From: Polyangia bacterium
Lineage (GTDB): Bacteria > Myxococcota_A > Polyangia > Polyangiales > JAUICN01
DNA: 59,353 bases
Assembly (NCBI GenBank): GCA_030427835.1
Contig: JAUICN010000015.1
Span: 1 to 59,353, forward strand
Reading direction: 5' to 3'
Made by a program: the position numbers and the translations under genes. Positions 4,168 to 44,007 of the stretch are shown here, piece by piece. Numbering within the stretch: position 1 is the stretch's first letter; each line of letters opens with the position of its first letter. The notes under the pieces are model-generated. The model saw only the letters and a program-made list of their open reading frames with translations, was not told the origin of the DNA and searched no databases.

Positions 4168-5880
4168 CTAAAAGCGATCCGTAACGGCACCCAAATGGGC
4201 CGAAGAAACGGTGCGCGCATATTTGGCAAGCACACCACGGGAAGGCGGCGTAGGGGGTACCCATTGGGCACGACGGTGTTCAAGCTCAGCCCCATCGAGA
4301 TGCACATCCAATCGTCGTTCAGTGGCATCAATCGTCACGGTGTCCCCCTCCTGTAGAAGTGCAATAGTCCCGCCGGTTGCTGCTTCCGGAGCCACGTGAC
4401 CCACCACCATGCCGTAACTTCCTCCAGAAAAACGGCCATCGGTGATCAGCCCAACCTTTTCCCCCAGTCCCTTGCCAATAATCGCAGACGTGGGCCCCAA
4501 CATTTCTCGCATGCCCGGCCCGCCCACGGGCCCCTCATACCGAACCACAATCACATCCCCTTCACGAATCTCGTCCGCCATGATGGCCGCCATGGCATTC
4601 TCTTCAGAATCGTACACACGGGCAGGCCCAGTGATTTTGGGATGCTTCACTCCAGTGATCTTTGCCACCGCACCATCCTCCGCAAGGTTGCCCCGTAGAA
4701 TCACAAGGTGGCCTTCATCGTAGAGCGGAGCGTCCATGGAACGAATCACTTCTCGATCCCCAGTCTCATCCCTAGAAGGTTCCCGGGGCACATCCGCCAA
4801 CGTCTCTGCAATGGTCTTGCCCGTGATGGTAAGGCAATCCCCGTGCAGCAGGCCGCGATCGAGCAACATCCGCATCACCTGCGGAATTCCACCGGCACGG
4901 TGAAGGTCCACCGCTAGGAACCGACCCGACGGCTTCATGTCGCAGAACACCGGAACCCGAGCACGAATCCGTTCAAAATCATCCAGCTCAAGCGACACAC
5001 CTGCCGTGTGCGCAATCGCCAACAGATGCAACACCGCATTCGTGGAACCCCCTACCGCCATCACCACAGAAATGGCATTCTCGAACGCCTCCCGGGTGAG
5101 TATTTGGCCGGGCAGGATCTGCTTTTGAATGGCATTCATCAGCACCCGCGCGCTTTCAGCCGAACTGTCTGCCTTCTCGGCATCTTCCGCGGCCATGGTG
5201 GAGCTGTAGGGCAAACTCATTCCCATCGCCTCAAAGGCGCTGCTCATGGTGTTGGCGGTGTACATCCCACCGCATGCGCCAGCTCCCGGGCACGCGTTCC
5301 GTTCCACATCCAGAAGCCGTTTTTTGTCAATCTTGCCCGCGTTGAACTGGCCCACCGCCTCAAAGGAGCTCACCAGATTCAAATCTTCACCATCCAGTTT
5401 TCCAGCCTTGATGGTACCGCCGTACACGAAAATCGCTGGGATATTCATGCGTGCAATCCCAATCAGGGCCCCAGGCATGTTCTTGTCGCACCCGCCGATG
5501 GCCAACACGCCATCCATGCGCAAGCCCTGGCAGGCGGTTTCAATACTGTCGGCGATCACTTCCCGGGAGACCAACGAGTACTTCATGCCCTGGGTGCCCA
5601 TGGAAATCCCATCCGAAATGGTGATGGTTCCAAACACCTGGGGCATGGCCCCCACCTCGCGCAGGGAATCCTGAGCGCGCTCCGCCAGTACATTCAACCC
5701 CGAGTTACAAGGAGTGATTGTGGAGTATCCATTGGCCACACCCACGATGGGCTTTCCGAAGTCACCGTCCCCAAAACCCACCGCACGCAACATGGCGCGG
5801 TTGGGAGAACGGGCGACGCCCTCGGTCACCTCCCGGCTGCGGGTATTGATACTTCCGTCGGATGTTTCATCGATCGACAT
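4168..5880 (-). CDS. ilvD: Dihydroxy-acid dehydratase IlvD
   Basis: 570 aa from the ATG at 5880, close to the family's usual length; a longer reading from 5955 would add an unconserved extension. It dehydrates 2,3-dihydroxy-3-methylbutanoate and -pentanoate to the 2-keto acids of valine and isoleucine synthesis, using an iron-sulfur cluster and Mg2+. The three conserved Cys regions are present: [17 protein letters not shown] and [16 protein letters not shown], plus the C-terminal [11 protein letters not shown] motif. No other ilv/leu gene is adjacent, so it is a stand-alone locus, divergent from the TPR gene. Confidence 0.97.
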
Positions 5881-6008
5881 GCCCCGTATTTGCCACGGGA
5901 AAGCCCCTTCGTCGACGGTCGAACCAGGGATGCTGGCTGTACAACGGGTGAACACTTCATGTTTCGCAATAGTTGAATGAAACGCTTTGCTGTTGCAGTC
6001 TCACCCAC

Positions 6009-6695
6009 ATGTTCAAACAGGGCCTATTGTGGGGGCATTTCTTGATTCTTAGCTCCACCTGCCTCGCCATGGCAGACGCTTCCACGCCCGCAGGGGCCTC
6101 CGTTCGCCAGGAGCGCATTGAACGCTCTCGGGAGCGTTTCCTGCAGGGTCTTGGCGCCTACAATGCCAACGACTACCGGGCGGCCTACACCCATTTTATC
6201 CGCGCACAGCAAGCCTGGCGTTCCCCTGCCATCGCCTTCAACATTGCACGGGTCTGCGAACACTTGGGAGAAGCGCAAAAGGGTATGTATTGGTTCAGGG
6301 CGTTTCTCACCCATGGAGATCCGGACGAGGCCACCACCCAAAACGTGCGACAGCGCATTCAACAGCTACAGGAGCTCTACGAGCGGCAAAGAGGGCAAAT
6401 ATTCCAGGCCCCGCCCTCCACCGATGAGCTCACCGAGCAGTCCCGAATTTTCTTTGTGCGAGGAGTCGAAATGTTCGCCCGCAAGGAGTACAGCGCAGCC
6501 ATGCAGGCGTTCACCGCAGCCATGCAATACGCCCCGTTTCCTGAACTGCTCTACAACATGGCAGTCACCGCTGAAACCATGGGCACCTACCGTGACGCCG
6601 CCGACTACTACCGCGAGTACCTGCGACTCAATCCAGGCGCACCCGATGGGGAAAAAGTGAAGGCACGTATTCGTGAGCTACGGCGACAACGGTGA
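6009..6695 (+). CDS. Exported TPR-repeat protein
   Basis: About 228 aa from the ATG at 6009; a longer start at 5973 is possible but places Cys residues before the signal. Residues 1-23 are a signal peptide ending near CLAMADA. Two blocks of TPR-like helices follow (FLQGLGAYNANDYRAAYTHF and a second block with YSAAMQAFTAAMQYAP and LLYNMAVTAETMG). The layout matches myxobacterial periplasmic TPR proteins that act as scaffolds; partner unknown. It converges on murI with only 9 bases between them. Confidence 0.8.
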   Translation: MFKQGLLWGHFLILSSTCLAMADASTPAGASVRQERIERSRERFLQGLGAYNANDYRAAYTHFIRAQQAWRSPAIAFNIARVCEHLGEAQKGMYWFRAFLTHGDPDEATTQNVRQRIQQLQELYERQRGQIFQAPPSTDELTEQSRIFFVRGVEMFARKEYSAAMQAFTAAMQYAPFPELLYNMAVTAETMGTYRDAADYYREYLRLNPGAPDGEKVKARIRELRRQR

Positions 6696-6704
6696 CACCC
6701 ACCG

Positions 6705-7517
6705 CTACTGCAAATCCACCTGCTGCACGCAAAGATCATCCACAGAGTCCCCAAGAAAACGGGCCGCCACCTCGCGAAAGCGGCTTGGCAAATCGGTAAC
6801 GTGAATCCGAAGAGATCCCGAACCCGGTGAAACGCCTACGGCCTCGACCAGAACCTTGGCTACGGCGCCCGCGCTGTCCACCACGGTCACTTCGTTGCCC
6901 AAGTCCAGTCGTTCAAGCTGCTCCTCAATCACACGGCGAAAAAGAGGATAGTGGGTGCAGCCCAACACCAGGGTATCCACACCTGTGCCCCTGAATGGTT
7001 CCAGGTAGGAACGGATCACCGCCCCGGCCACAGGGCCATCCAACCAGCCCTCTTCCGCGAGTGGAACAAGCAACGGAGCCTCCTGCTGCACCACCGTGGC
7101 AGAGGGCTCCACATCGGTCACGGCCCGTTCGTAGGCGCCGGACACCACGGTTCCACGGGTTGCCAGTACCCCAATACGGTAACTCCGGGTAGCCGCAAGC
7201 CCCGCACGGGCTCCCGGTTCCACCACGCCGAACACCTCCACGTCCAACATCTCCCGAAGCATGGGCAGTGCTACCGCGCTCACCGTATTGCAGGCCACAA
7301 CCACACAACCCACGTCATGGGTACGCAAAAGGCGCGCACACCGTTTGGCGTACTCCACCACCGTGGAAGCACTGCGAACGCCGTAGGGCACACGAGCCGT
7401 ATCCCCCAAATAAACAATAGAAGTCCCGGGAAGACTCGCCCGCAACGCCCGTACTACGGTAAGCCCACCCAATCCCGAATCAAATACCCCTATCGGGCGG
7501 TCCCCAAGTACCAACAA
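6705..7517 (-). CDS. murI: Glutamate racemase MurI
   Basis: 270 aa, typical length. It converts L-glutamate to D-glutamate for peptidoglycan. Both catalytic Cys motifs are seen, VACNT near residue 75 and LGCTHYP near residue 187, along with IGVFDSGLGGLTV and YLGDTARVPYG. The start is TTG at 7517, supported by GAGGAG six bases upstream; no nearby in-frame ATG fits. It is divergent from the sensor protein gene across 267 bases. Confidence 0.96.
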   Translation of the reverse strand: MLVLGDRPIGVFDSGLGGLTVVRALRASLPGTSIVYLGDTARVPYGVRSASTVVEYAKRCARLLRTHDVGCVVVACNTVSAVALPMLREMLDVEVFGVVEPGARAGLAATRSYRIGVLATRGTVVSGAYERAVTDVEPSATVVQQEAPLLVPLAEEGWLDGPVAGAVIRSYLEPFRGTGVDTLVLGCTHYPLFRRVIEEQLERLDLGNEVTVVDSAGAVAKVLVEAVGVSPGSGSLRIHVTDLPSRFREVAARFLGDSVDDLCVQQVDLQ

Positions 7518-7784
7518 CGTAGTCTCCTCGATGACTCCAAGAAAAGGAGCGGCCTGAGAAGTTACCTAACGCAAGATCTGCCGTACTGCACGTGCCCGTG
7601 TGCCACAACAAACAAACCAGGAACTTGTGCCAAAGCGCAATCGCCCTAGGAACACCACATAGGCGCCCGGGGTAGCAGAACAGGCCCCCCTAGGTAGATT
7701 GGATTCCAAAGCGTTCCCCAAACCCCAAAAGGTACCGAATGATAGGCTTTTCATGGACAACCACGGACCAACGTAAGAGACTCC

Positions 7785-28617: not shown

Positions 28618-30807
28618 ATGGGGTGTGGCGGCCCAAACCACTGTCGGCAGCAAACCCCACAGGTAGCAACGGCCAGGGTAGAAACGGCCAGGGTAGAAAC
28701 GGCCAGGGTAGAAACACAAAGAACCCAAACAGACACTGAAAACCCATACAAACACAGGGCAACACCGTCCCCAATCGCCCTGTTGGAACCATGGCTTAGC
28801 CCCGGCCCCTGGGCACCGGCCTTTACCCAAACCGGCACCGCACTAAAAAACGCAGATCGCCAACCGTGGGCCACAGAGTGGGCCGACACGGCAACCTGTG
28901 CACGTTGCCACAGCGACATCGTCCGGGAATGGAACACCAGCGCACACGCCTGGTCCTCCTTTTCCAACCCCTGGTACCACGCGGTGGTCGACCAGTTTAG
29001 GAACGAAACCAGTTTCGAACGAAGCCGGTTCTGCGCGGGCTGCCACGACCCCATGCTACTCATCTCTGGGGGCATCGATCAACCGGTACGCCCCACCGAT
29101 CCCCTGGCCCACGCAGGCATCACGTGCCTCACCTGCCACGGCTCCACAAAACACACCACCCATGGAAACGGCAGCTACACACTGGACCCATCTCCCATCA
29201 CCATTCCCAAACCCGGTGACCCCACATCGCTCGCAGCCCACCGAAAACGCCTGGGTCCAGACCACCTGCGCGAACCCACGTTCTGCGGAAGCTGCCATCG
29301 GAGTTTCCTTTCCACCCGTGTGGAACACGGTCACTTCCAATCCGGAATCGACGATCTTGGTGGCTGGCAGGCTTCCCAATTCGCCACAACACCCATCGAT
29401 GATCTACAACCGGCCGACCCGAAAACATGCACGTCCTGCCACATGCCAGAGGCCTCCTCCAACAATGAGAATCAAAGGCCTAGCCTCTACCGTTCCCATC
29501 GATTCCTGGGCGCCCACACCGGCCTGCACCGGTTTACCCAGACCGATGAACATTGGAACAACCTAGTCGAACAACTACGGAAAAACATCGCCGTGCACCT
29601 GTTGTGGTGGAACGAACAAAACCAACCCACCACAGCCCTAACCAAGAATGCCTCAGGCACATGGTACCTGGACGTGGTCATTTCCAACAACGGCGTCGGT
29701 CACCACTTTCCGGGGGGCACCCGAGATACCCAGGACACCCAACTGCAGGTCAAGCTGCTGGACGACCACGGGCACACACTCACCCGTTCCACCCACGGGC
29801 TCAACAGCCACAACCTCCGCTCTATCCAGCTTCAATCCGATGGCACGCCCCAATGGACACACGCGGTGCACACCTTTGCATCATCTGCACAGGACCACAC
29901 CATCCCCGCAGGGCACGCACGCATCGCACGTTACGCAGTAGACCTGAACTCACTGACAAAGCACCCCACCCAAGTCTCAGTACAGCTCCTGCACCGGCGG
30001 CACAACACTGCCCTGGAACAGTTCGCGTGCAGTTTCCAAAAACAGAAGCCCGCATTTCGAAACAATGCGCACATCCAAAAAGGGTTCGATGTCAACAGCT
30101 GCCAGCCGCTACCATCCACACCTCTGGTAGATCGCACCCACCGCGTAGCGCTACCCAACCCCAGTCTTCGACAACGTTTTCTCCATGCGCGCGCCCTGCT
30201 TGAAAGCACCACCGATCATTGGTCCCAGGCAGACACGCTGCTGAAGGGAGTGACCTGCAGCACACAGGATCTGGACTGCGCAAACCTCACCCTACTCCGG
30301 GCAAGGCTCTGGGCCCAACGGGGAAAACCAGAAGAAGCCGAAAGAGTACTAAACAGCCTTCCACAGATCTGGACCCATCACGCCTCAGTACGGGCCACCC
30401 GCGCCATGGCCTGGCAACGGGTGTGGAACTGGGAAAACTCTGCCTCCGCCTTGCAAACCGCGTCCCGACAATCCAACCACCCCACACTGCAAGAATCGCT
30501 CGGCCTTGCCCTATTCAACTCAAACCAGATGGAAGCCGCCGTCACCCATACCTGGACTGCCCTTGGAAGTACGCCCCACGCCCAACCCCTCTGGCGCATC
30601 CAAGCCCTCACCCACCAAAGGCAACAACCCAACAACCACACGCTCATCCGTCAACTCTGGACCGCCCACGCCCTCACCACCCCCAACCCCCAAGCCCACG
30701 GCATCCGAGACCACTGCCAAACCAAAATCCCTGGGTGCTTCAACCAGTCCCAACGCATCCCTGTGTACCCGATGCAACCCCTTCGAATGGAAAGCCCTCA
30801 CCACTGA
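28618..30807 (+). CDS. Five-heme cytochrome c with C-terminal helical-repeat region
   Basis: 729 aa from the ATG at 28618. Five CxxCH heme motifs occur within about 80-290: CARCH, CAGCH, CLTCH, CGSCH and CTSCH, resembling multiheme cytochrome c554-like proteins. The rest contains a beta-rich region (DVVISNNGVGHHFPGG) and a TPR-like C-terminus. A better start may be CTG at 28576, just after the DUF2330 stop and preceded by AGGG: it adds RIGHITAVSLALSMGC, which makes a lipoprotein signal that the ATG start lacks. Heme attachment requires export, so the upstream start is favoured but not proven. Likely co-transcribed with the DUF2330 gene. Confidence 0.85.
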   Translation: MGCGGPNHCRQQTPQVATARVETARVETARVETQRTQTDTENPYKHRATPSPIALLEPWLSPGPWAPAFTQTGTALKNADRQPWATEWADTATCARCHSDIVREWNTSAHAWSSFSNPWYHAVVDQFRNETSFERSRFCAGCHDPMLLISGGIDQPVRPTDPLAHAGITCLTCHGSTKHTTHGNGSYTLDPSPITIPKPGDPTSLAAHRKRLGPDHLREPTFCGSCHRSFLSTRVEHGHFQSGIDDLGGWQASQFATTPIDDLQPADPKTCTSCHMPEASSNNENQRPSLYRSHRFLGAHTGLHRFTQTDEHWNNLVEQLRKNIAVHLLWWNEQNQPTTALTKNASGTWYLDVVISNNGVGHHFPGGTRDTQDTQLQVKLLDDHGHTLTRSTHGLNSHNLRSIQLQSDGTPQWTHAVHTFASSAQDHTIPAGHARIARYAVDLNSLTKHPTQVSVQLLHRRHNTALEQFACSFQKQKPAFRNNAHIQKGFDVNSCQPLPSTPLVDRTHRVALPNPSLRQRFLHARALLESTTDHWSQADTLLKGVTCSTQDLDCANLTLLRARLWAQRGKPEEAERVLNSLPQIWTHHASVRATRAMAWQRVWNWENSASALQTASRQSNHPTLQESLGLALFNSNQMEAAVTHTWTALGSTPHAQPLWRIQALTHQRQQPNNHTLIRQLWTAHALTTPNPQAHGIRDHCQTKIPGCFNQSQRIPVYPMQPLRMESPHH
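28662..28717. repeat. 15-bp tandem repeat (three to four units) near the cytochrome N-terminus
   Basis: Unit GGTAGAAACGGCCAG repeated, with a diverged first unit (GGTAGCAACGGCCAG). It encodes ARVET in the stalk between the predicted lipid anchor and the heme domain. Confidence 0.9.
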
Positions 30808-30978: not shown

Positions 30979-31857
30979 ATGACCATGCCCAGACAGGTAC
31001 TCGCCGGGACCACCTACATGATAAGTCGTCGTTGCACTGATCGACGATTTTACCTACGCCCAAGCCCCTGGCTCAACGCCGTCGCCCTATTTTTGTTGGC
31101 CGTATTTGCGAAAGCGTTTGGCATGGAAGTCCATGGGTTCACTATGATGTGCAACCACTACCATCTCATGCTTACCGACCCCTATGGTCGATTGCCCAAG
31201 TTCATGGAACGCTTCAACCGACAACTCGCCCTAGCTGTCAAATTCTACCACGGAGTGCGAGGAACAGTCTTTGACCCGAGCGTTTCCTATCACGCCATGC
31301 CGCTCCCTACTGCAGAGGCCGTGCTGGACAAGCTCAGCTACATGACCCTCAACCCGGTCACCGCTGGGCTTGTACCTCATCACAAGCAATGGAATGGACT
31401 CCTCACAACACCCGAGCAGTTGGGAACCGTACTGGCCGAAGGCATACGGGTCCCCACTTTCTTCAGAAAGGTCAGATGGCTCGTACCGGCACGATTCGTA
31501 CTCACAATGCCACCTGCACTTCGGGATCAGAACCGAGACGAAGTCGTAACCACACTACAACGGCTCATAGAGCAACGTCGTCGTCAAATACGAGGACCTT
31601 TTCAGGGAATGGAACGCGTTCGACAGATTCCCATAAACTCCCATCCCACCACACAGTCTTCAGCCACGCCCAAAAGGAACCCAACATTTTCTGCCAAAAG
31701 CTCGCGAATCTACCGCGAAGCCCAAGCATCTCTTCGACGCTTCCGCCAAGCATATCGGGCAGCTCTGCTGCTGTTTCGAGAGGGTCACTTCGCCACTCCG
31801 TTTCCAGAAGGAACCTGGTGGATGGTCCACTATGGCGGCGCATCCCCAGCAACCTGA
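30979..31857 (+). CDS. RAYT/TnpA_REP-like HUH transposase-family protein
   Basis: 292 aa. The ribosome site AAGGAG lies directly upstream; ATGs at 30979 and 30985 are both possible. Family features are the N-terminal YMISRRCTDRRFYL, the HUH-type MMCNHYHLMLTD and NPVTAGLV. The usual GHVFQ-type motif reads GTVFDPS, and the C-terminal 100 aa are Arg/Ser-rich and unconserved. RAYT proteins are single-copy relatives of IS200/IS605 transposases that act on REP palindromes. No clear REP cluster was found here. Catalytic Tyr was not placed with confidence. Confidence 0.8.
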   Translation: MTMPRQVLAGTTYMISRRCTDRRFYLRPSPWLNAVALFLLAVFAKAFGMEVHGFTMMCNHYHLMLTDPYGRLPKFMERFNRQLALAVKFYHGVRGTVFDPSVSYHAMPLPTAEAVLDKLSYMTLNPVTAGLVPHHKQWNGLLTTPEQLGTVLAEGIRVPTFFRKVRWLVPARFVLTMPPALRDQNRDEVVTTLQRLIEQRRRQIRGPFQGMERVRQIPINSHPTTQSSATPKRNPTFSAKSSRIYREAQASLRRFRQAYRAALLLFREGHFATPFPEGTWWMVHYGGASPAT

Positions 31858-32158: not shown

Positions 32159-33049
32159 GTGACTGCACCCGATTCAGCTTTCCCTCGCTACACCTATTTG
32201 CATGTGGATGTGCCTGCAAATGTTGAAGACGAGGTGTCTTTTCAACTTTGGGAGCTTGGGGCCAACGGGGTAGAAACTCGAGACCAGGCCACCCTCTCAC
32301 AACCCACACCAGAAGTCGGTAACAGCACCCACATCACACTCATTGGTCACTTTGACAACGACAACGTTGCCAAGGCCGCCAGCACTGCCCTGAAACCCTA
32401 CCCCACATGCATACAACACGTGGTAGGAGACGGGTGGCAGCACGAGTGGAAGCGTTTTTTTCACACCGCACGCATCGGGCGAAACATTGTCGTTCGCCCC
32501 CCCTGGGAGCCAGACGTAGCCACCTCAGATGAAATCCACATCGTCATCGATCCCGGAATGGCATTTGGCACCGGCACCCATGAAACCACCCAACTCGTCT
32601 TGCAGGATCTCGAAGCTCGGGTCCATTTCAGTGACCCGGACCGGGTGCAAACCGTATTGGACGTGGGTTGTGGCAGTGGGATTCTGGCCATCGCTGCACT
32701 CAAGTTAGGAGCACGCAAGGCCCGCTGCATCGACATCGATCCCCTTGCCGTGACCGCAAGTCACGAAAATGCACAACGCAATGGTGTGGGCACGCGCCTG
32801 AAGGCTTCCACCACGCCCTGTTCACGTTTGCGCACTGAATATCCTGTGGTGTTAGCAAACATTGAATCCAGAATACTGCTACCCATGCAGGACACCCTGA
32901 TGCAACGACTCGCCAAAGGAGGCACTCTCATCCTCAGCGGCATCCTCAAGGAAGAAGCACGGGACGTGCACGACAACTACGCCGCCAAACTCGGCCCCGG
33001 CCTCATTCGCACCATGGGCAACTGGGTAAGTATCACCTACCAACGGTAA
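32159..33049 (+). CDS. prmA: Ribosomal protein L11 methyltransferase PrmA
   Basis: 296 aa from a GTG start. PrmA methylates Lys and the N-terminus of ribosomal protein L11 using SAM. The class I SAM site is VLDVGCGSGILAIAALKLGA, preceded by the family motif DPGMAFGTGTHETT; ANIESRIL stands where the family has ANIL. The N-terminal substrate-recognition domain is present. It is followed after 6 bases by rsmE, a common pairing, so they form an operon. Confidence 0.95.
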   Translation: MTAPDSAFPRYTYLHVDVPANVEDEVSFQLWELGANGVETRDQATLSQPTPEVGNSTHITLIGHFDNDNVAKAASTALKPYPTCIQHVVGDGWQHEWKRFFHTARIGRNIVVRPPWEPDVATSDEIHIVIDPGMAFGTGTHETTQLVLQDLEARVHFSDPDRVQTVLDVGCGSGILAIAALKLGARKARCIDIDPLAVTASHENAQRNGVGTRLKASTTPCSRLRTEYPVVLANIESRILLPMQDTLMQRLAKGGTLILSGILKEEARDVHDNYAAKLGPGLIRTMGNWVSITYQR

Positions 33050-33055
33050 CCTAAC

Positions 33056-33805
33056 ATGCACAGGCTTCTCGTACGCAACCTCCCTATCCAAGGCGAATCG
33101 GTCACACTTGATCCAACCGTTGCGAAGCACGCACGGGTGTTGCGCCTTGAGCCAGGCGATCAGGTATTGCTGTTCGACGGCGCAGGGTCGGAATGCCCCG
33201 CCCAGGTGGAATCCGTATCTGAAACTGAAATCACCTGCCGAGTCACAGAAGCCACCCGGCGGTTCACGACTGCAACAGTTCCGCTCCATCTGGTGCAAGC
33301 CATCCCCAAGGGCACGAAAACCGATAGCATCGTTCGCATGGTGACAGAGCTTGGCATCCATGGCGTACATCTAGTCGAGACCGAACGGGTGGTAGCCCGC
33401 TGGGAGCCAAAAAAAGTACAGGCAAAACTGGAACGCCTTCAACGTATTGCCGAAGAGGCAGTACGACAATCCGGTCGTCTACACATTCCCCAAGTGCATC
33501 ACCGCCCGAACCTTCAACATCTAGTACAGGCTGTTCCCACAGAGGCCACCAAAATTGCTTTCTGGGAGGAACACGGCCCCACCCTGCAGCCCCTCGAACA
33601 GGCCGCCAGCGCGCCCACGGAACACGGTATCTGGATCCTGGTCGGCGCCGAAGGCGGTATCTCCGCAAACGAAATCAAACAACTACGTACCAACGGATGG
33701 ATCACCTGTGGTCTCGGCGCCACTATTCTCCGAGTAGAAACTGCGGCTCCCGTTGCCGTCGCCCTCACCCTCGATCGCATGAACCAACTCACTTCCCGTC
33801 GCTAG
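33056..33805 (+). CDS. rsmE: 16S rRNA (uracil-1498-N3) methyltransferase RsmE
   Basis: 249 aa, usual length. N-terminal PUA-like domain (HARVLRLEPGDQVLLFDG) and C-terminal SPOUT knot with the SAM-binding LVGAEGGISANEI and LGATILRVETAAPVAVAL. Methylates U1498 of 16S rRNA. Its stop overlaps by 4 bases the end of the convergent small membrane protein gene. Confidence 0.95.
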   Translation: MHRLLVRNLPIQGESVTLDPTVAKHARVLRLEPGDQVLLFDGAGSECPAQVESVSETEITCRVTEATRRFTTATVPLHLVQAIPKGTKTDSIVRMVTELGIHGVHLVETERVVARWEPKKVQAKLERLQRIAEEAVRQSGRLHIPQVHHRPNLQHLVQAVPTEATKIAFWEEHGPTLQPLEQAASAPTEHGIWILVGAEGGISANEIKQLRTNGWITCGLGATILRVETAAPVAVALTLDRMNQLTSRR

Positions 33806-34035
33806 ATCCGTCGCAATAGAGTGTAGGCCAATCCAAAACCACACCAAAGAAGGGCCGCCATACGATGCCCTGTCTTCCAAAGCAATACAGGTACCATGGG
33901 TGGCAGCAACGCCCACGCCCGACCAGGAATGCCAGAACGAAACAGCAACCAAAACAACATCAGGAGGTGAGCAAACATCCAGGTGCCGCCCAACGCACTC
34001 CACAGCACAAGTTGCTCCCAACCGCCCAGGTTCAT
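33802..34035 (-). CDS. Small membrane protein (77 aa) downstream of the NtrC-like regulator
   Basis: ATG at 34035, immediately after the TGA of the upstream gene (34039-34041); a GTG at 34038 would add one residue. Two hydrophobic helices (LVLWSALGGTWMFAHLLMLFWLLF and LLPPMVPVLLW) plus a third shorter one. No homolog recognised. Tight spacing to the regulator suggests co-translation and perhaps a functional link at the membrane. Confidence 0.55.
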   Translation of the reverse strand: MNLGGWEQLVLWSALGGTWMFAHLLMLFWLLFRSGIPGRAWALLPPMVPVLLWKTGHRMAALLWCGFGLAYTLLRRI

Positions 34036-34038
34036 CAC

Positions 34039-36558
34039 TCAGGCCTCAACCACAGAATCTTGAATCCCAAACCGCTTGAGTTTGTCGTGAAAAGTGGATC
34101 TCTTGAGCCCCAGCGCCCGAGCCGCTTGACTCTTGTTACCACCATTCTGTTCCAGGGCCCGTTCTAGGATACGACGCTCCAAGTCGTCATACGACGCCCC
34201 CACCTCCGGTGCGTCTCCCCGAATTTGAATATTGTCCAGGGTCACCCGGTCCCCTGAGCAATAGGGAAGATGGCTTTGCAGCCAAGCGCGAATCCCATCA
34301 AGGCCACCGGGCCAGTTCATTTGCTTTAGTTTTTCAAGCGCGGCTTGCGTAAAACCCATCGGTGCACGACCCAATCGTCGACGAGCGCACTCCAACTCCT
34401 GCAACAACATGGACTCCAAATCCCTCGGGCGGCATGCGAGATCGGGTACCACAACAAGCGTAGACGCCAACCGTTCCCGTAGTGGGTCCTCCATCCATGC
34501 TGTGGGAAGCCCACCTGGAGAAGACACCCAAACCAAACGAACATCCACGGTGCGAGATCCCGTCGGTCCAGTAACACGCCGAGACACCATCAACTCGATC
34601 AACCGCGGGTGCAGTTCCCTAGGGATGGAAGCACTGTTCAGAAGAACCAACGTTCCGCCCTCCGCATCCACCACCCGCCCAGGTCGAGACCCGTCACCTA
34701 AAAGCCATGCTTCCAGCCCTGAGTCACCAGATTCCTCCGTTCCATCATTGAAAGCAGCACAATCCACAAATACAAGCGGGCCACTCGCCCCCCCATGCTG
34801 GTGCAACCGGTAGCACCACCGTCGAGCCTCCAGGAAAGACTCCATTTCAAGCCAGATGGGAACACCAGATTCACCTAACTTTAACACCTTGTCCAAAGCC
34901 ACCCGACTCCCGTCGTCGTAGGCCGTGGGTTCCACACGAATATCCGCCCACGCCCCATCGTCCTGAATATCCCTATTCTGTAGATGGGCCTCCACGGATT
35001 GCTGGGACAGCAAATCCAGCTCATCCCGCAAACCGTCCCGTTCACGGTGCAAACGGCTAATCTCGCTTGTGAGCCTGAGAGCTCGCTGGTGTGCAAACAC
35101 ACGCACCCCAAGGCCGTGCGCCAAACCGCGCAGAGCCTCCACCTCGTCATGTCGAAGGGGGCTCCGCCGTCGGCCCCGCGGCACCACCAACGCCCCTTCC
35201 AACTCCCCTTGCACCCACAACGGTAGAATACATTGGGCATTCCATTCCTGCATCCACGCCCAAAGGTCCCGAAGCCCAGGTTCACGAACATGCCGGCGTT
35301 CCACTTCCGAACGCAACACCACCTGCAAGGATTCCTTTTCTAGGAAAGACAAGGGAGTACGGCCCATCCACGCCTGGTCACCGTCCACTACGCGGTGGTC
35401 CACGATTTCAGTAACCACTTTGCCCGTACCCTGAATCCTGAAAAGCGCGGGCGGGTCTACGCACAACAGAAGTGGCTGCGCATCCGCCTCACGAGCCGCC
35501 TTTCGAAACGCCACCAACGCCCGCTCCGCAAGATCTTCCAGCGTCACAGCCTGGTGCGTACCCTGCCAGACCTGATGCACCGCGTTCAGCAAACGTACCC
35601 GCCAGGGTGCAAACCAACGAACGAAAAGAGAAAACACCAACGACTGTACCCACCAGGCCGCCACAAGAAGACCGACACACCACAGCCAAAGCACCTCAAG
35701 CTTGTCACCCCCCCAGAGTCGACCAGCCAAAAGACTTACCACCGCAAACGACACACCCCATGAAGCAGCTCGTGAAAGCTGGCGACCGTCATTGAGGCGA
35801 GCACCCGACTCAAGCCCCATGACGTGGCCAACCACCAAGCTAAGTCCGCCCCACACAGAAAGCCATGGCTTCACTTCCCCGAGAAACAACATCGGAGCGG
35901 TAGAGGTCGACAACAGGGCAGACGTCAAGAGTGCCACCACCGCAAGAGCCAGACCGACAAACACCCAGGCATCGCGAACCCGTGGTTCGCTCTTTGCTGT
36001 ACGGCGCAGATCCCAACCACGAATCCCCAACGCCAGAACGCAACTCGCCACAAACCCAGCATGCGCGGCACTCGACCACACCATGGGAACCAACGTAGGG
36101 ACCCCAAAGAGCATCAACAACGGGCCCTCGGCCAACACTGCCGCCAACGTCAACAAACACAGCGCCAGCACCGCTGCCACACGCAGGTAGAGCACGTTCG
36201 CAAAAGCGGACAACCCTGGGCGGTCCAAGCCAAGGTCCAATACAAACACCGCACCCAAACCCACCGCGACACGCTCGAACCAATGCACGACTAGCAAACC
36301 CTCGGGCAATACCCCCAGGGCGCTCCAAATCGCGCACACAATGGTGATGCCAATCGTACGACGGGCCCCTCGAACATCCACCGATCTCAGCGACAGCCAC
36401 CAGGGCACCAACCCAACCCCTAGGCCTATCCCCCAACGAACCCACCGAGCGCTGTCATTCCAGAGCGAATGGACCGCCAGATCCACGGAACCCAGTGTCA
36501 GCCCCTGGGCAAGCGCGTAACACACCACCATAGGGGCAAAAAGGATTCCCCATCGCAC
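34039..36558 (-). CDS. Integral-membrane NtrC-like regulator with a degenerate AAA+ domain
   Basis: 839 aa. Residues 1-320 hold about ten membrane helices. A GAF-like region follows at about 335-490, then a coiled coil (LTSEISRLHRERDGLRDELDLL). Residues 560-760 align with the sigma54-activator AAA+ domain, but Walker A reads GESGVPIWLE where family members have GESGTGKE. The GAFTGA loop is gone, and Walker B reads GGTLVLLNSA instead of GGTLFLDEI. The C-terminus is an intact Fis-type HTH (LERRILERALEQNGGNKSQA, ALGLKRSTFHDKLKRFGI). It probably binds DNA from the membrane without ATPase-driven sigma54 activation. Lies 3 bases after pcnB. Confidence 0.85.
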   Translation of the reverse strand: MRWGILFAPMVVCYALAQGLTLGSVDLAVHSLWNDSARWVRWGIGLGVGLVPWWLSLRSVDVRGARRTIGITIVCAIWSALGVLPEGLLVVHWFERVAVGLGAVFVLDLGLDRPGLSAFANVLYLRVAAVLALCLLTLAAVLAEGPLLMLFGVPTLVPMVWSSAAHAGFVASCVLALGIRGWDLRRTAKSEPRVRDAWVFVGLALAVVALLTSALLSTSTAPMLFLGEVKPWLSVWGGLSLVVGHVMGLESGARLNDGRQLSRAASWGVSFAVVSLLAGRLWGGDKLEVLWLWCVGLLVAAWWVQSLVFSLFVRWFAPWRVRLLNAVHQVWQGTHQAVTLEDLAERALVAFRKAAREADAQPLLLCVDPPALFRIQGTGKVVTEIVDHRVVDGDQAWMGRTPLSFLEKESLQVVLRSEVERRHVREPGLRDLWAWMQEWNAQCILPLWVQGELEGALVVPRGRRRSPLRHDEVEALRGLAHGLGVRVFAHQRALRLTSEISRLHRERDGLRDELDLLSQQSVEAHLQNRDIQDDGAWADIRVEPTAYDDGSRVALDKVLKLGESGVPIWLEMESFLEARRWCYRLHQHGGASGPLVFVDCAAFNDGTEESGDSGLEAWLLGDGSRPGRVVDAEGGTLVLLNSASIPRELHPRLIELMVSRRVTGPTGSRTVDVRLVWVSSPGGLPTAWMEDPLRERLASTLVVVPDLACRPRDLESMLLQELECARRRLGRAPMGFTQAALEKLKQMNWPGGLDGIRAWLQSHLPYCSGDRVTLDNIQIRGDAPEVGASYDDLERRILERALEQNGGNKSQAARALGLKRSTFHDKLKRFGIQDSVVEA

Positions 36559-36561
36559 CGT

Positions 36562-37887
36562 TCAGCGCCCCCGTCCCCGCTCTTTCACAGGCTTGTCTCC
36601 CGCCCCACCGCCACGGGTCCCATAGTCCTCTACCCAGTCCGGAATCGACTCACCACGGGCAACCTTGCCCATCCTGAAGAACTGCACCGCATCCGAAAAA
36701 TAGTCCCGACGGCGAAGGGCACCAAATTTGCCGGACTGCAAGCGCCGCTGGGCCATAACAATCGAGCGCACACGATCCTTCACACGCCTAGGAACCGACA
36801 AGCGCTCCGTAACAGGCTGAAAAAACTCCTCAAACGCCACCGGAAGATCCTTCAGCCCCTCCAACCACTCCTCGAGAGGAGGTCGCAGCAAACAGGCAAG
36901 CAACACCGTATCGTCAAGGGGCTTACCCTCCGCCCCACTCTGATCGATCTGATCCAACATGGACCAGAGAGGATTTCCCACACCTGCGCTGTCCCCCGCT
37001 GCAGCGTCATCCAAAAACGCCGATAGCTCCGGAACCATCATGGCAAGGGAGCCCGTTTCCCAAAGGATCTGAACCGACTTGCGAGATTTTCCTCCCCGTA
37101 GAAGGCGAAGCAGCTCCTCAAAAAGGCGTGGCTTCGCCGCATTGGCCAATTCGTGATGTAAACCGACCATGGCATCCATCAGCGGTGGATCAATATTCAA
37201 ACCCAGCCGAGCCTGAAACTTGATCGCACGCAGGATCCGAATCGGATCCTCACGGAGCCGCACCCAGGGGTCCCCAATCATACGTACCGTGCGGGACTCC
37301 ACATCGCGCATGCCATCCACATAGTCGATGACTTCCTCAGTATTGCAATCAAAGAACAAACCATTGATCGTGAAATCCCTTCGAAGTGCATCCTCATGGG
37401 GACGACCAAAAGTGTTGTCCCTTCGAATCAGCAGTTCCCGGTCGCCCCCTGACGAACGTTTCCCATGGGACCCATCGCGGCGCGTGCCCGGGTCCCGCCG
37501 GAACGTGGCCGTTTCAATCACTTTTCCGTCAGGATAGAACACATGCACCAGCCGAAAACGGCGACCAATGATCCTGGAATTGCGAAACAGGTCACGAACT
37601 TCCTCAGGTCGAGCGTCCGTAGCCACATCAAAATCCTTGGGGGTGGCTCCAAGCAACAGGTCTCGGACACCGCCACCCACCAAATAGGAAGCGTAGCCAC
37701 TCTCATTCAATCGGTGGATCACCCGGCGGGCATCCCCATCGACGGCCTCTGCGGAAATCCGATCGCCGTGGCGCACGGGATCCGGGGCCCTGGGCATGCG
37801 ACGCCGGGCCGGTGTACGAGGCGTACGGGGTTTCCGGGCTTTTTTCGGGGCTGAAGACACCCCGGAAGGTGGGGAACTCGAAGGCAT
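36562..37887 (-). CDS. pcnB: Poly(A) polymerase I / tRNA nucleotidyltransferase-family protein PcnB
   Basis: 441 aa from the ATG at 37887. Adds 3' poly(A) tails that promote RNA decay. The nucleotidyltransferase signature LVGGGVRDLLLGATPKDFDV is followed by RRDFTINGLFFD and the LREDPIRILRAIKFQARLG helix typical of PcnB. A basic N-terminus (KKARKPRTPRTPARRR) and C-terminus (ERGRGR) suit RNA binding. It could instead add CCA, but the length and the DPIRILRAIKF form favour poly(A) polymerase. First gene of a leftward operon with the NtrC-like regulator. Confidence 0.88.
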   Translation of the reverse strand: MPSSSPPSGVSSAPKKARKPRTPRTPARRRMPRAPDPVRHGDRISAEAVDGDARRVIHRLNESGYASYLVGGGVRDLLLGATPKDFDVATDARPEEVRDLFRNSRIIGRRFRLVHVFYPDGKVIETATFRRDPGTRRDGSHGKRSSGGDRELLIRRDNTFGRPHEDALRRDFTINGLFFDCNTEEVIDYVDGMRDVESRTVRMIGDPWVRLREDPIRILRAIKFQARLGLNIDPPLMDAMVGLHHELANAAKPRLFEELLRLLRGGKSRKSVQILWETGSLAMMVPELSAFLDDAAAGDSAGVGNPLWSMLDQIDQSGAEGKPLDDTVLLACLLRPPLEEWLEGLKDLPVAFEEFFQPVTERLSVPRRVKDRVRSIVMAQRRLQSGKFGALRRRDYFSDAVQFFRMGKVARGESIPDWVEDYGTRGGGAGDKPVKERGRGR

Positions 37888-38040
37888 AACGGGAAAAACG
37901 ACCGCAGAGGAAACACACCCTCCGCCAAAAGATGAAGTGGGAGGTTCTAGCAGGAACCCACAAAACGTCGACCATCGCCCCATAGGGAGGCTCAAGAAAA
38001 CGCTAAAAAGGGCACTACACAAGCAAAGGAACCCAACGAT

Positions 38041-39633
38041 TTGGCCACAAACGCACACATTTGGCACCCTCCCCATGTGCAAGGAATCACCCGACGCCAG
38101 GCCACCACCCTACTGGCAGGCCCATTGCTTCTGGCAGCGTTCCATTCGGTCACCGTACAGGCCCAAACGCCGATCACAGAAAACGACTTCAATATCGACC
38201 TCTACACGGGCCCCATTTTAGGGGGCGGTCGTGCCATGGGCATGGGCGGCGCCTACACAGCCATTGCCGAAGGTCTGGACGGCGCCCCCTGGAACCCTGC
38301 CGCCTACGGCTCACGCACCCTATGGCAGTTAAAGTGGTTCGAATGGGAGATTACGGGAAGCCTCATGTTCCCCGGAGGATTTGCTTCGAATGATTTTTAC
38401 AACTCGGGCACCACCGAAGGCTTCGCGGTGGACCGGTTTTTGTTTGTGACGCTCGGAGCACGCCTACAGTTTGGCGACGTGGGTGTGGGGTTCCTGCCCC
38501 AATGGCGAACGTTCACCCTGGATGACGGCACAGGTTCCCCGGTGGACGTCACCTTCAACCAGGGTCACGCCGGATTTGCCTACCAGCTGCACAACGGTCA
38601 AATCGTGATCGGCGGAGGATGGCGATTCGCCAAGGTAAGCCTACGCGACGCAAACAACCTCGAACTGGTTTCAACCTCAGGAAACTCGGCAGAACTGGGG
38701 GTGCTCGTTCGCTACGAAGATCAGCCCTGGCGTCTTGGCGTCGCCACCAAAACCCCAGTTGCCACGGACGCAGACAACGTATCTGGGCTCATGGTACAAG
38801 ACGGAGTTTCCTCCGCCGGTGGCCTCGTGCTCCCCAGAAGAGCCTATATGCCCTGGGAACTTCAGGTCGGCTTTGCCTATCAGTTTGGAGATCGCCCCCT
38901 AAACCAACGGTGGGTCGATCCCCAAAACCGAAATAAGTCCCTACGCCAATCCCAGACCATTCAGTGGCTCAGCCGTGAGCATCAGCAGTGGATGCGAGAA
39001 CAGTCAGCAGCTGAAAGCCCGTTGGGTTCAGCGAAAGCACTCGACGACCCACGCAGCGACCTACGCAGCGACCCACGCGGCAATCCACAAACAGACCAGG
39101 TACAACATCGTTTGCCTTCGGATCCCTACGCCTGGTCGGAAGCCCGACCCCAAAGCCCGAGTTTTTGGAAAGAAGAAAAGCGACGCCGCGAAGAAGAACT
39201 GAAACACATCGATGAGCAATACGAACGTGATGCACAACAGCGCCGGGAAGAGATGGAGTCCATCCCGCGATTCTACGTACTGCTCAGCACCGAAATCCTG
39301 CTCACCGGAAAAAGCTCAAACGCCATTGATCCTGAGGCTTTCCTCCTACAACGCCACCGCCGTTCCGGTACACGCAACTCCTTCGCCTACCGATTTGGGG
39401 CAGAAACAGAACCTCTCGCCCATCGACTCAAGATCCGCGCTGGCACCTACCTAGAACCTGCTCGCATCGAAGGCGCCACGTCCCGCGGCCATTTTACGGC
39501 TGGGACAGATCTACGCCTGTTCACCTGGGACGTCTTCGGACTGTTCCAGAAGTTTGATATTCGGGTGAGCGGTCTTCTGGACGCTGCGCCCCGATACTTC
39601 AACTGGGGAGTCAGCGTCGGCGTTTGGCACTAG
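38041..39633 (+). CDS. Outer-membrane beta-barrel protein (FadL/PorV-like N-terminus)
   Basis: 530 aa from a TTG at 38041 with AAGGA about 10 bases upstream; GTG at 38077 is an alternative. Signal peptide ends near SVTVQAQT. The segment GGRAMGMGGAYTAIAEGLDGAPWNPAA matches the hatch motif of FadL/PorV-type barrels. Residues 300-410 form a charged, coiled-coil-like insertion (EEKRRREEELKHIDEQYERD) before the last strands; the protein ends in VSVGVWH. Possibly a hydrophobic-substrate transporter or a type IX-like shuttle homologue. Overlaps the convergent flippase gene by 23 bases. Confidence 0.78.
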   Translation: MATNAHIWHPPHVQGITRRQATTLLAGPLLLAAFHSVTVQAQTPITENDFNIDLYTGPILGGGRAMGMGGAYTAIAEGLDGAPWNPAAYGSRTLWQLKWFEWEITGSLMFPGGFASNDFYNSGTTEGFAVDRFLFVTLGARLQFGDVGVGFLPQWRTFTLDDGTGSPVDVTFNQGHAGFAYQLHNGQIVIGGGWRFAKVSLRDANNLELVSTSGNSAELGVLVRYEDQPWRLGVATKTPVATDADNVSGLMVQDGVSSAGGLVLPRRAYMPWELQVGFAYQFGDRPLNQRWVDPQNRNKSLRQSQTIQWLSREHQQWMREQSAAESPLGSAKALDDPRSDLRSDPRGNPQTDQVQHRLPSDPYAWSEARPQSPSFWKEEKRRREEELKHIDEQYERDAQQRREEMESIPRFYVLLSTEILLTGKSSNAIDPEAFLLQRHRRSGTRNSFAYRFGAETEPLAHRLKIRAGTYLEPARIEGATSRGHFTAGTDLRLFTWDVFGLFQKFDIRVSGLLDAAPRYFNWGVSVGVWH

Positions 39634-41236
39634 GTTCGTCTTCTCCCAGGGAAACATCCCCACGTTTTAACAACATCGACAGTGCACCCCGGGTCCTTGG
39701 CATCCAAACAAGAACGGCGATGCCGTAAAACACCACGCCCACGCTCACCTTCGCTATGAGCACCCACACCCAGTGGATCCCCTGCCCGATGAGCTGAATC
39801 CCAAGCCACCACACAACCAAGCCCATGGCACCCGCGTTCATCCAAATCGGCACCATGGCACCTAGAGTTTGCCGAACTGAAACCTCGGCGGCTCGATGGG
39901 ACATCCACACCGTGGGAAAAAAGATAAGCACATTGGCCACAGCGTAGGCCTGGGCCACCCCCAACCCACCACCGGGCAGGACCCACACACCATTCTGCGA
40001 TTCCAGCAATGGCAATGGCAATGGCAATGGCAATGGCAACGTGAAGCCGTGCACACCCACCCAAAACGCAAGGGCAAACACCACCGTTTGGGTCAACCCC
40101 ACCACAAACATCGGCCGGCTCTGCCCCTTGGCCAAAAACAGCCACTGAAACGTATTGGAGGTGATTTGCAACACCGACGCCAGGGACAACCACTGAAGAA
40201 TGCCCGCACTCACCCCCCACTTTGCGCCGTACACCAACCGCACCACTTCAGGTGCCACCGCACCAAGGCCAATCGCCACGGGCACCCCCACGGCGCCCAT
40301 CTGACGCGTCACCCGCCCATACATCGCGCGAAACGCAGCCATATCTGACTGCAGCGAAGAAAGGGCAGGCCAAAACACATTGCCCATGCCCTGCACAAAC
40401 AGCGTGGCCGGTAGTGTCATTAAAAAATAGGCCCGGTTGTAGAACCCCAACTCACCTGAACCCCACACGCGGCCAATCAAAATGTTGTCCAGGTTCCGTG
40501 ACAGGTAAAACATCAAGGAGGTAAGCGTAATACCCGCCCCAAACCGAAGAAACATCACCGTCCCCTGGCCTGGCGTAAACCGGGCAGGCCGGTACTTCGA
40601 GGCCATCCACATTCCCACCATGCGCACGCCCTGGGCCACCACCACATGGACAACCAACGCCCAATACTCCGCGCCCCAAAGGCCGGCGACCAGGGCAGAT
40701 ACCACCGCCACCAGTTGTGCCGAAAGCTCCACCAGGGACACCGCGCGGGTGCGTAGCTGCCGGGTAAGGATCGCCGCCGGTTGAAGCGCCAGCCCATCAA
40801 ACACAAACGTCACCCCAAGCAACGCAGAAACCGCCACCAACTCGGGCTGGCGGTAGAACCAGGCAAGGGCCGGCCCCATCATCACACACACACACCAGAG
40901 CAGAACTCCCAGGCCCGCGCTGACCCAAAACAGGTTATCTACCTGGGCCTTCTTGAGAGAAGCGCGCTGAATCGCCGCCGCGCCCAAACCAAAATTGCCC
41001 ACCGTCTGCAACAACGCCGTAAGCGTTGTCGCCTGGGCCACCATGCCGTAGTCGTGCTCCGAAAGCAGCCGGGCCAACACCATGCTCGTACCCAGGCCCA
41101 GCACCCGCATCAACACCACCTGCACCAGGGCCCAACGCACCCCGCCGCGCACAAGCCCATCCAACCGGTCCGTACGGGCTGCAGCCACCTCACCGGGCAT
41201 CACCGAAGGGCTCTTAGAATCGTTTTCAGATTGCAT
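39611..41236 (-). CDS. Wzx-like polysaccharide flippase (MOP superfamily)
   Basis: 541 aa with 12-14 membrane helices. The N-terminus (GVRWALVQVVLMRVLGLGTSMVLARLL followed by YGMVAQATTL) and NLDNILIGRVWG and LGFYNRAYFL are typical of Wzx/polysaccharide-export proteins (MatE-type). It should flip lipid-linked oligosaccharide across the inner membrane. One loop/helix start contains LPLPLPLPLPL, encoded by a hexanucleotide repeat. No other O-antigen or capsule genes are adjacent. Confidence 0.9.
   Translation of the reverse strand: MQSENDSKSPSVMPGEVAAARTDRLDGLVRGGVRWALVQVVLMRVLGLGTSMVLARLLSEHDYGMVAQATTLTALLQTVGNFGLGAAAIQRASLKKAQVDNLFWVSAGLGVLLWCVCVMMGPALAWFYRQPELVAVSALLGVTFVFDGLALQPAAILTRQLRTRAVSLVELSAQLVAVVSALVAGLWGAEYWALVVHVVVAQGVRMVGMWMASKYRPARFTPGQGTVMFLRFGAGITLTSLMFYLSRNLDNILIGRVWGSGELGFYNRAYFLMTLPATLFVQGMGNVFWPALSSLQSDMAAFRAMYGRVTRQMGAVGVPVAIGLGAVAPEVVRLVYGAKWGVSAGILQWLSLASVLQITSNTFQWLFLAKGQSRPMFVVGLTQTVVFALAFWVGVHGFTLPLPLPLPLPLLESQNGVWVLPGGGLGVAQAYAVANVLIFFPTVWMSHRAAEVSVRQTLGAMVPIWMNAGAMGLVVWWLGIQLIGQGIHWVWVLIAKVSVGVVFYGIAVLVWMPRTRGALSMLLKRGDVSLGEDEPSAKRRR
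40007..40040. repeat. CAATGG hexanucleotide repeat (five units plus a partial) in the flippase gene
   Basis: Five perfect CAATGG units from 40007 to 40036, then CAAC. On the minus strand they read Leu-Pro dipeptides. Six-base steps keep the frame, so slippage would only change the length of the Leu-Pro stretch. Confidence 0.95.
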
Positions 41237-41967: not shown

Positions 41968-44007
41968 CTACTCCGCCAACATGGCTCGAAAGAGGGGTTC
42001 GTCGATGACTTTGGTTCCGTAGCTTTCGGCCTTGTCCTTCTTGGATTTGCCGGTGTTCTCGCCCGCCACAAGGAACGTGGTGCCCTTTTTGACCCGGTCG
42101 TGCACTTCGCCACCTGCGGCGCGAATCTTTTCGTGGATGACCGGGCGCGGTTGGCTGAGAGTTCCTGTCACGCAAAAACTCTGACCCACCAGGGGGCCCT
42201 CACCTGCGGCACCCGCGGAAGTGTCCTCCTGGGAAGTCAGCCCCAGGGCGATCATCCGTTCCAACATGGCCCGCTCCTGGGGATCCCCCAAAAAAGCCAC
42301 CATGCTTGAGGCCATCTTGGCGCCAATGCCGTGCACCTCAGCAAGCTTCTCCTCCAGCTCGCCCAGGTCCTGACCAAGCAGGGCGGGCAAGTCCGGGTAC
42401 AGGCCCGCAATCAACTTGGCCGCACTGGCACCCACCAGGGGAATACCCAGGCCCGTAAGCAACTGGGCAAACGTACGCTCCGTGCGGGATCGTTCCACCG
42501 ATGCGAGCAGGTTGTCCACGCTCTTTTCCGCCATGCGCTCCAACCCAAGCACCGCATCCCGCTTGCTCGGTAGCGCAAACACGTCTGCCAGGTCCTGCAC
42601 CAAACCTGCCGCCACCAACTGATCGATCAACACCTTGCCCAGGTGATCCACATCCATGGCCGTGCGGCGTGTAAAATGGAACAACGCCGCCCGCAGTCGC
42701 CCAGGGCAACGCCCGTTGGGACAACGCAGCGCAGCCTCCCCCTCTTCCCGTACCACCGCCGCTTTGCACGAGGGGCATTCTGTGGGCACCGTCCACGCAA
42801 CCGATTCCGGTGGGCGTTGGTCGAGCACCACCCGCATCACCTGGGGAATAATCTCCCCCGCCTTCTGCACCACCACCGTATCTCCCACACGGATGTCCTT
42901 CGCCGCAATGTAGTCCACGTTGTGAAGCGAAGCGCGCGCCACAGTCGTGCCCGCAAGTGCCACGGGCTGCAGTTCCGCCACGGGAGTCAATGCACCCGTA
43001 CGCCCCACATCCCCCGTAATGGCCAAAAGCCGTGTGGTCGCCTGCTCAGCGGCAAACTTGTAGGCAATGGCCCACCGCGGAAACCGTGCAGTAAACCCAA
43101 GCTCCTGTCGCTGGGACAACGCGTCCACCTTCAACACCACCCCATCGGTGGGGTAAGGAAGCCCTGAACGCTTGCTTTCAAAATCGTCCAAGTACCGGTA
43201 CACCCCGGCGAGCGTCTCACACCGCTGCTCCAAACCATGGGTGGGTAACCCCCAATCCTGCAGCCCCTTCAACATGTCGGAGTGCGTTGCAAAGTAGGGC
43301 GGCGCGCCAGATTCTGTGTACACCAAGTCGTAAAGCGAAATGCGCAACTTGCGCGCCGCGGTCAGCGCCGGGTCGAGCAACCTCAAAGCACCGGATGCCG
43401 CATTGCGTGGGTTAGCAAAGGGCTCTTCCCCTGCCCCACGCCGTACAACATTGACCGCCTCAAGATCCGCCCCGTGAATGAACACCTCTCCCCGCAAAAT
43501 CACTTCACGCTTCTCAGGAATGCTCAACGGCAATCCCCGAATAGTCCGCGCATTCGCCGTGGCATCCTCACCCATCACGCCATCCCCCCGCGTAATGGCA
43601 GCGGCAAGCAACCCATCCCGGTAGATCACCTCAAGGCTCGCGCCGTCAATCTTAGGTTCCGCAACGTACACCGGGGTTTCCCCGTCACCCAACCGTTCCC
43701 GCACCCGCCGATCAAACTCCTCAAGGGCGCCCAGATCGTAGGAGTTGTCCAGTGAGTACATGGGCACCGGATGCTCCGCCTTCACCACCCCCTCCCGGGG
43801 CTGGGCCCCCACCCGCTGGGTGGGCGACTCCGGCGTCACCAATCCCGGGTGTGCCTGCTCCAGGGATTTCAGTTCAGCAAAAAGCCTATCGTACTCCCGA
43901 TCCGAAACCGTGGGCGCGTCCAACACATAGTACGCCCGATCGTGCGCCCGAACCTGAGCCACAAGCTCCCTGTGCCGGCCAACCGCATCCTCACTCACCT
44001 CACCCAT
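41968..44007 (-). CDS. ligA: NAD-dependent DNA ligase LigA
   Basis: 679 aa from the ATG at 44007; eight more codons reach an ATG at 44031. The AMP-accepting Lys is in EPKIDGASLEV. Domains follow in order: Ia/adenylation, OB (VGDTVVVQKAGEIIPQ), a four-Cys zinc finger (ECPSCKAAVV, LRCPNGRCPG), HhH repeats (LLTGLGIPLVGASAA, EVHGIGAKMA) and a C-terminal BRCT (GQSFCVTGTLSQPRPVIHEK). All residues for activity appear present. Confidence 0.97.
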   Translation of the reverse strand: MGEVSEDAVGRHRELVAQVRAHDRAYYVLDAPTVSDREYDRLFAELKSLEQAHPGLVTPESPTQRVGAQPREGVVKAEHPVPMYSLDNSYDLGALEEFDRRVRERLGDGETPVYVAEPKIDGASLEVIYRDGLLAAAITRGDGVMGEDATANARTIRGLPLSIPEKREVILRGEVFIHGADLEAVNVVRRGAGEEPFANPRNAASGALRLLDPALTAARKLRISLYDLVYTESGAPPYFATHSDMLKGLQDWGLPTHGLEQRCETLAGVYRYLDDFESKRSGLPYPTDGVVLKVDALSQRQELGFTARFPRWAIAYKFAAEQATTRLLAITGDVGRTGALTPVAELQPVALAGTTVARASLHNVDYIAAKDIRVGDTVVVQKAGEIIPQVMRVVLDQRPPESVAWTVPTECPSCKAAVVREEGEAALRCPNGRCPGRLRAALFHFTRRTAMDVDHLGKVLIDQLVAAGLVQDLADVFALPSKRDAVLGLERMAEKSVDNLLASVERSRTERTFAQLLTGLGIPLVGASAAKLIAGLYPDLPALLGQDLGELEEKLAEVHGIGAKMASSMVAFLGDPQERAMLERMIALGLTSQEDTSAGAAGEGPLVGQSFCVTGTLSQPRPVIHEKIRAAGGEVHDRVKKGTTFLVAGENTGKSKKDKAESYGTKVIDEPLFRAMLAE

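Follow-up and report, generated by a model that had tools for sequence, protein, structure and literature searches.

The sigma54 activators, among them NtrC, NtrX, ZraR, PspF and FlrC, are built on an AAA+ fold with a lid, followed by a C-terminal Fis-type helix-turn-helix (HTH). Relatives lacking the GAFTGA motif are already known: they include R. capsulatus NtrC and HupR, VpsR, TyrR, DhaR and Caulobacter NtrC, several of which have been described at sigma70 promoters (PMC10274813, PMC3162934), with regulation of such promoters by R. capsulatus NtrC, V. cholerae VpsR and Caulobacter NtrC (PMC10274813). Those that have been studied are soluble proteins, several of which still rely on the ATP site. 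ATP binding is needed by R. capsulatus NtrC, and intact Walker motifs by Caulobacter NtrC (PMC10274813). Transmembrane transcription regulators are common and 56% of them are single-pass (survey PMC10269533); in ToxR, TcpP and CadC, a DNA-binding domain and a membrane segment occur in one chain. In PrsK-type membrane histidine kinases (TIGR02916), a membrane region is followed by a GAF domain.

The window analysed here (the whole stretch of 59,353 nucleotides from a Polyangia bacterium, contig JAUICN010000015.1) encodes an 839-amino-acid (aa) protein which shares with the sigma54 activators the AAA+ fold, the lid and the C-terminal Fis-type HTH. However, every ortholog lacks the Walker A lysine, GAFTGA and the Walker B Asp-Glu, and the protein carries ten membrane helices. 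The sigma54-contact loop is lost as in the GAFTGA-lacking activators acting with sigma70 but, unlike R. capsulatus and Caulobacter NtrC, which need their ATP site, this family has also lost the P-loop lysine throughout. To our knowledge, none of the named GAFTGA-lacking activators carries a ten-helix membrane domain. As in the transmembrane regulators, a DNA-binding domain (HTH_8) and a membrane part (ten predicted helices) are found in one chain, but here the helices are accompanied by a GAF and a pseudo-AAA+ domain, and the DNA-binding domain has been lost in several orthologs. The order membrane region then GAF recalls the PrsK-type kinases, whose kinase output is replaced here by the pseudo-AAA+ domain and HTH. 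Both the ATP site and the sigma54 loop are gone across most of a bacterial order, in a domain that is folded, under selection and anchored to the membrane. A literature search found no publications on this family.

Organization of the locus

The gene is an open frame of 839 codons with a GTG start and no internal stops. The features of the locus, all on the minus strand, are as follows.

34039-36558 (-), whole gene, 839-aa membrane-embedded pseudo-AAA+ Fis-type regulator; open frame, full-length orthologs with E down to 1.6e-65
35611-36558 (-), ten transmembrane helices, residues 1-316, N and C ends predicted cytoplasmic; AlphaFold helices, hydropathy, positive-inside charge pattern
35089-35541 (-), GAF domain, residues about 340-490; sub-threshold Pfam match, Foldseek
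34936-35088 (-), signalling helix, residues 491-541, continuing from GAF, a probable dimerization coil; unbroken in the models (model helix 470-540), coil deduced
34441-34935 (-), pseudo-AAA+ alpha/beta subdomain, residues 542-706; sigma54-activator AAA+ fold, catalytic motifs missing
34822-34845 (-), P-loop (Walker A) equivalent, residues 572-579, MESFLEAR replacing GESGTGKE; family alignment
34681-34695 (-), site of the deleted GAFTGA loop, residues 622-626, DGSRP; spacing relative to the intact activators of the genome
34633-34659 (-), Walker B equivalent, residues 634-642, GGTLVLLNS replacing GGTLFLDEI; alignment, and regex with intact controls
34222-34440 (-), lid of the AAA+ domain, residues 707-779; conserved more strongly than the rest of the core (55% pairwise)
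34063-34194 (-), Fis-type HTH, residues 789-832; HTH_8
33802-34038 (-), 78-aa hydrophobic (membrane) ORF, beginning right behind the main gene's stop codon; does not recur in related loci
36562-38082 (-), pcnB-like poly(A) polymerase, upstream and codirectional; PolyA_pol 114 bits, adjacency not conserved

The C-terminal Fis-type HTH, described as well conserved in the original prediction made from the sequence, is indeed a clear HTH_8 match (Pfam, 49.3 bits for a cut-off of 22, residues 792-830). The Sigma54_activat match is below threshold (18.3 bits, cut-off 20.2) and begins at profile position 48, past the P-loop; ZraR, NtrX and PspF are retrieved by PDB sequence search over residues about 582-832. 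The predicted GAF domain is likewise present, with a weak Pfam match (16.5 bits, under the cut-off); the GAF model is matched by 6 of 23 relatives, and Foldseek relates this region to the GAF-containing dual-sensor histidine kinase 6ob8 (2.7e-4).

Membrane part and predicted structure

Mean pLDDT is 82.6 for the AlphaFold model of the full chain and 85.3 for that of the N-terminal part. In the latter, residues 2 to 316 contain ten helices, as originally proposed, followed by the GAF domain and then a single continuous helix of about 70 residues. Positive charges sit after helices 2, 4, 6, 8 and 10, while the odd-numbered loops have almost none. This positive-inside pattern across ten helices places the GAF, pseudo-AAA+ and HTH domains and both chain ends in the cytoplasm. 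Linkers of low confidence and flexible appearance precede the AAA+ part and the HTH.

The similarity of the AAA+ region to sigma54 activators, noted originally, is borne out by the predicted structure. The best match of the pseudo-AAA+ domain is FlrC (Z 24.7, rmsd 2.1, 232 residues across both subdomains) and the top matches are all sigma54 activators, VpsR being among the matches (Z 23.1). The membrane bundle resembles seven-helix GPCR-like folds (Z up to 16), a value near the chance range for helical bundles, and no relationship is claimed.

A PrsK-like membrane histidine kinase encoded elsewhere in the phylum (L214, positions 5345-7651; PrsK-like over its C-terminal two thirds) resembles the family in its linker and GAF domain (hhalign E 1.6e-7), the membrane helices lying outside the match. 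A PrsK-like sensor was not retained as an identity for the N-terminal part: the match is confined to GAF and linker, TIGR02916 is not matched by the N-terminal 540 residues, and the window genome has no TIGR02916 match above the cut-off. Pfam finds no kinase domain in the window protein.

Loss of the motor motifs

Walker A is destroyed, as had been predicted, although its equivalent is not GESGVPIWLE (residues 562-571), where it had been placed. Since β-strand 1 of the AlphaFold model occupies residues 568-571 and the orthologs align GEPGTGLE or GEEGAGLD at 572-579, the P-loop equivalent is MESFLEAR (572-579); the conclusion is unchanged. Where intact copies read GGTLFLDEI, the Walker B position reads GGTLVLLNSA, in agreement with the original reading. 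The GAFTGA loop was also correctly described as absent. The LLG and GR anchors are 5 residues apart, the corresponding figure being 14 for most of the genome's intact activators (these figures hold for the window protein and the intact controls, since the regex was misanchored in many relatives); the motif is deleted rather than mutated.

These losses are common to the family. Intact motifs were sought in 89 collected orthologs, one of which ends at a contig edge ahead of the AAA+ domain. Walker A (GxxGxGK[EDST], by regex) was found in 0/89, as against 15/15 of the other sigma54 activators of the window genome, and the Walker B Asp-Glu (strict pattern) in 0/89, as against 13/15 of these controls. 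No genuine GAFTGA occurs in the alignment of the 89 orthologs, while it is present in all 15 controls; five loose GAFTGA-like regex matches in the family (GSHPG, for instance) were judged not to be the motif. The losses being common to all 89 orthologs, local degradation of the window copy was ruled out. The ATP-driven motor would have been dead since far back in the evolution of the family.

The window genome encodes sigma54 alongside its 15 intact activators, so the sigma54 system is intact and the 839-aa protein stands apart from it. Three other weak Sigma54_activat matches in this genome were considered as paralogs and rejected, being ClpB-, MoxR- and ClpA-like by sequence. The data support the original view of a membrane-bound protein that would be unable to perform ATP-driven sigma54 remodelling, and its HTH looks functional.

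Distribution and selection

A search of 97 related genomes retrieved full-length relatives at 24-34% identity. Using a model of the N-terminal part (membrane and GAF), orthologs were identified in 91 of 106 Polyangiales genomes (Myxococcota), with essentially one copy per genome; the named members belong to Sandaracinaceae and other Polyangiales. Outside Polyangiales, a phylum-wide sample of 379 genomes gave only three weak matches, one of them a histidine kinase.

Across 15 close ortholog pairs, dN/dS ranges from 0.10 to 0.33 for the alpha/beta part of the pseudo-AAA+ domain and from 0.07 to 0.32 for the lid (0.07-0.14 in the HTH-bearing pairs). Purifying selection is alike in HTH-bearing and HTH-less pairs, with dN/dS mostly 0.1-0.3. 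These values describe the family, the window copy having no close relative among the genomes searched. The pseudo-AAA+ domain is maintained rather than decaying, and the persistence of both fold and purifying selection indicates that it has a non-ATPase job. The most conserved segment of the HTH-bearing lineages is the HTH itself (70% pairwise identity), which is almost invariant between close species (dN near 0 in most pairs). Near-universal residues of the GAF domain and lid (V424, R425, R430, P705, L707, R710 and D713) are kept equally with and without the HTH.

With a branch of 1.5 changes per column, the window copy ranks among the two most divergent members of the family; it also departs from several near-universal residues (R262, D376, D641 and E755). 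Its own activity could therefore be weaker or changed.

Repeated loss of the HTH

The HTH is cleanly absent from 37 of the 84 orthologs that could be scored, in which the protein stops just past the AAA+ lid. The HTH-less sets are f12, f7, part of f5 and G065 (loci among L172-L176, L155, L161-L168 and L177-L215); in these the sensor, GAF and pseudo-AAA+ domains remain under purifying selection. A six-frame search for a displaced HTH up to 1.5 kb downstream (less than 600 bases in two loci) gave none, except for a weak chance-level match in G082.

On the tree, the HTH state changes at least three times with 84 rows and at least twice with a 28-row subset of the 87 rows, and on this subset a single HTH-less clade is rejected (AU p = 0.00023). 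HTH-bearing and HTH-less copies of f5 have common downstream genes (rhomboid, ExbB and ExbD), which indicates that the loss happened in place. The counts alone cannot separate loss from repeated gain. However, activators normally carry a C-terminal HTH, which makes loss more likely. We consider that the HTH was lost at least twice, probably three times, and that it is the HTH, and not the membrane part, that is the dispensable piece, a feature new here.

Stages of change coexist: there are P-loops of the GEPGTGLE type, and HTH-bearing and HTH-less copies occupy the same locus within a single family. The family therefore offers a good natural series for the role of an AAA+ domain with its motor off, and also bears on whether a transcription factor can become a DNA-independent membrane signalling protein.

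Possible functions

The reading that we hold to be moderately probable is that of a polytopic membrane protein acting as a one-component regulator and descending from a sigma54 enhancer-binding protein. It would neither hydrolyse ATP nor remodel sigma54 and, in the HTH-bearing lineages, it would bind DNA from the membrane. Signals would be taken up by the ten membrane helices and the cytoplasmic GAF domain and relayed by the long helix, probably a dimer coil, to the pseudo-AAA+ domain, which may act as a rigid conformational or protein-docking unit. Where the Fis-type HTH is present, as in the window protein, it would activate or repress promoters of a sigma70-type polymerase. The sensor, GAF and pseudo-AAA+ domains form the core that the family conserves, and probably act via protein contacts. 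The membrane-bound character and the absence of ATP-driven remodelling put forward originally both hold in this reading; DNA binding as the essence of the protein is not supported, the HTH being lost in the sets given above. Since several lineages lack the HTH and keep the rest, part of the function presumably needs no DNA binding, and loss in at least two and probably three lineages argues against DNA binding as a shared essential function.

Given the repeated HTH loss with the rest under selection, a function of the sensor and pseudo-AAA+ core that needs no DNA has to be taken seriously as an alternative, and may hold in part for every lineage. The HTH loss suggests membrane signalling as the main job of the protein. 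In the strict form of this alternative, which we regard as somewhat unlikely, the protein would serve as sensor or scaffold at the membrane, its pseudo-AAA+ domain docking another protein, for example sequestering an intact sigma54 activator in mixed oligomers, the HTH being an accessory of some lineages. The scattered distribution of the HTH-less copies, the loss in place within f5, the strong selection in HTH-less pairs and the GAF/lid residues common to both groups all point in this direction, and the 15 intact activators and sigma54 of the window genome would be available as partners. However, where present, the HTH is conserved above every other segment, unlike an idle accessory, and no partner gene is consistently linked. 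Tentatively, the family as a whole might be described as a single-copy, order-wide membrane pseudo-AAA+ signalling family, converted from a sigma54 activator and with a DNA-independent core, from which the HTH is shed lineage by lineage and which would act through protein contacts, such as restraining other activators at the membrane.

The flexible-looking linkers ahead of the AAA+ part and the HTH, and the rhomboid protease gene nearby in f5, would also fit a membrane-held regulator whose cytoplasmic part is freed by a protease upon a signal and then acts on DNA. This is improbable: the rhomboid gene is linked in f5 only, lies on the opposite strand and accompanies HTH-less copies too, for which release to DNA would be useless. 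Even less credible is a decaying pseudogene or locally degraded copy of an ordinary activator. The long branch of the window copy and its sub-threshold sigma54-activator score speak for such decay, but the 839-codon frame is open, G+C by codon position resembles that of the neighbouring genes and the HTH is intact, while every ortholog shows identical losses and close pairs elsewhere are under purifying selection.

Gene neighborhood and other observations

The gene does lie between pcnB and the small membrane ORF, as first noted. However, neither neighbor recurs in related loci, which rules out pcnB as a conserved partner and a functional link to either gene. The genes prmA/rsmE and ligA recur beside HTH-bearing copies; in the window they are found at 32159-33805 (prmA and rsmE) and 41971-43998 (ligA), positions that support orthology.

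A gene encoding MshEN, a c-di-GMP-binding domain, and HEAT repeats lies beside HTH-bearing copies in eleven loci, immediately upstream in several (L041, L123, L127, L182-L185 and others). In the window genome, the search for such a MshEN/HEAT partner gave one marginal match and none that is convincing. In f5 (L172-L176), the ortholog is followed by the rhomboid, ExbB/TolQ and ExbD/TolR genes. Some 20 loci have Ser/Thr kinase genes nearby (cluster c1: 20 loci), which were discounted as genes of this type abound in myxobacteria.

Elsewhere in the window, positions 28618-30807 encode a protein resembling multihaem cytochrome c554; close to its start there is a 15-base tandem repeat (28662-28715). 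The 292-aa ORF at 30979-31857 resembles, by eye, a REP-associated tyrosine transposase (NHYHLML motif), with no Pfam match. A perfect tandem repeat of the 6-base unit GCAATG (5.7 copies, 40006-40039) lies within a polysaccharide flippase-like gene (39611-41236), where it encodes a Pro-Leu run and where length changes would keep the frame.
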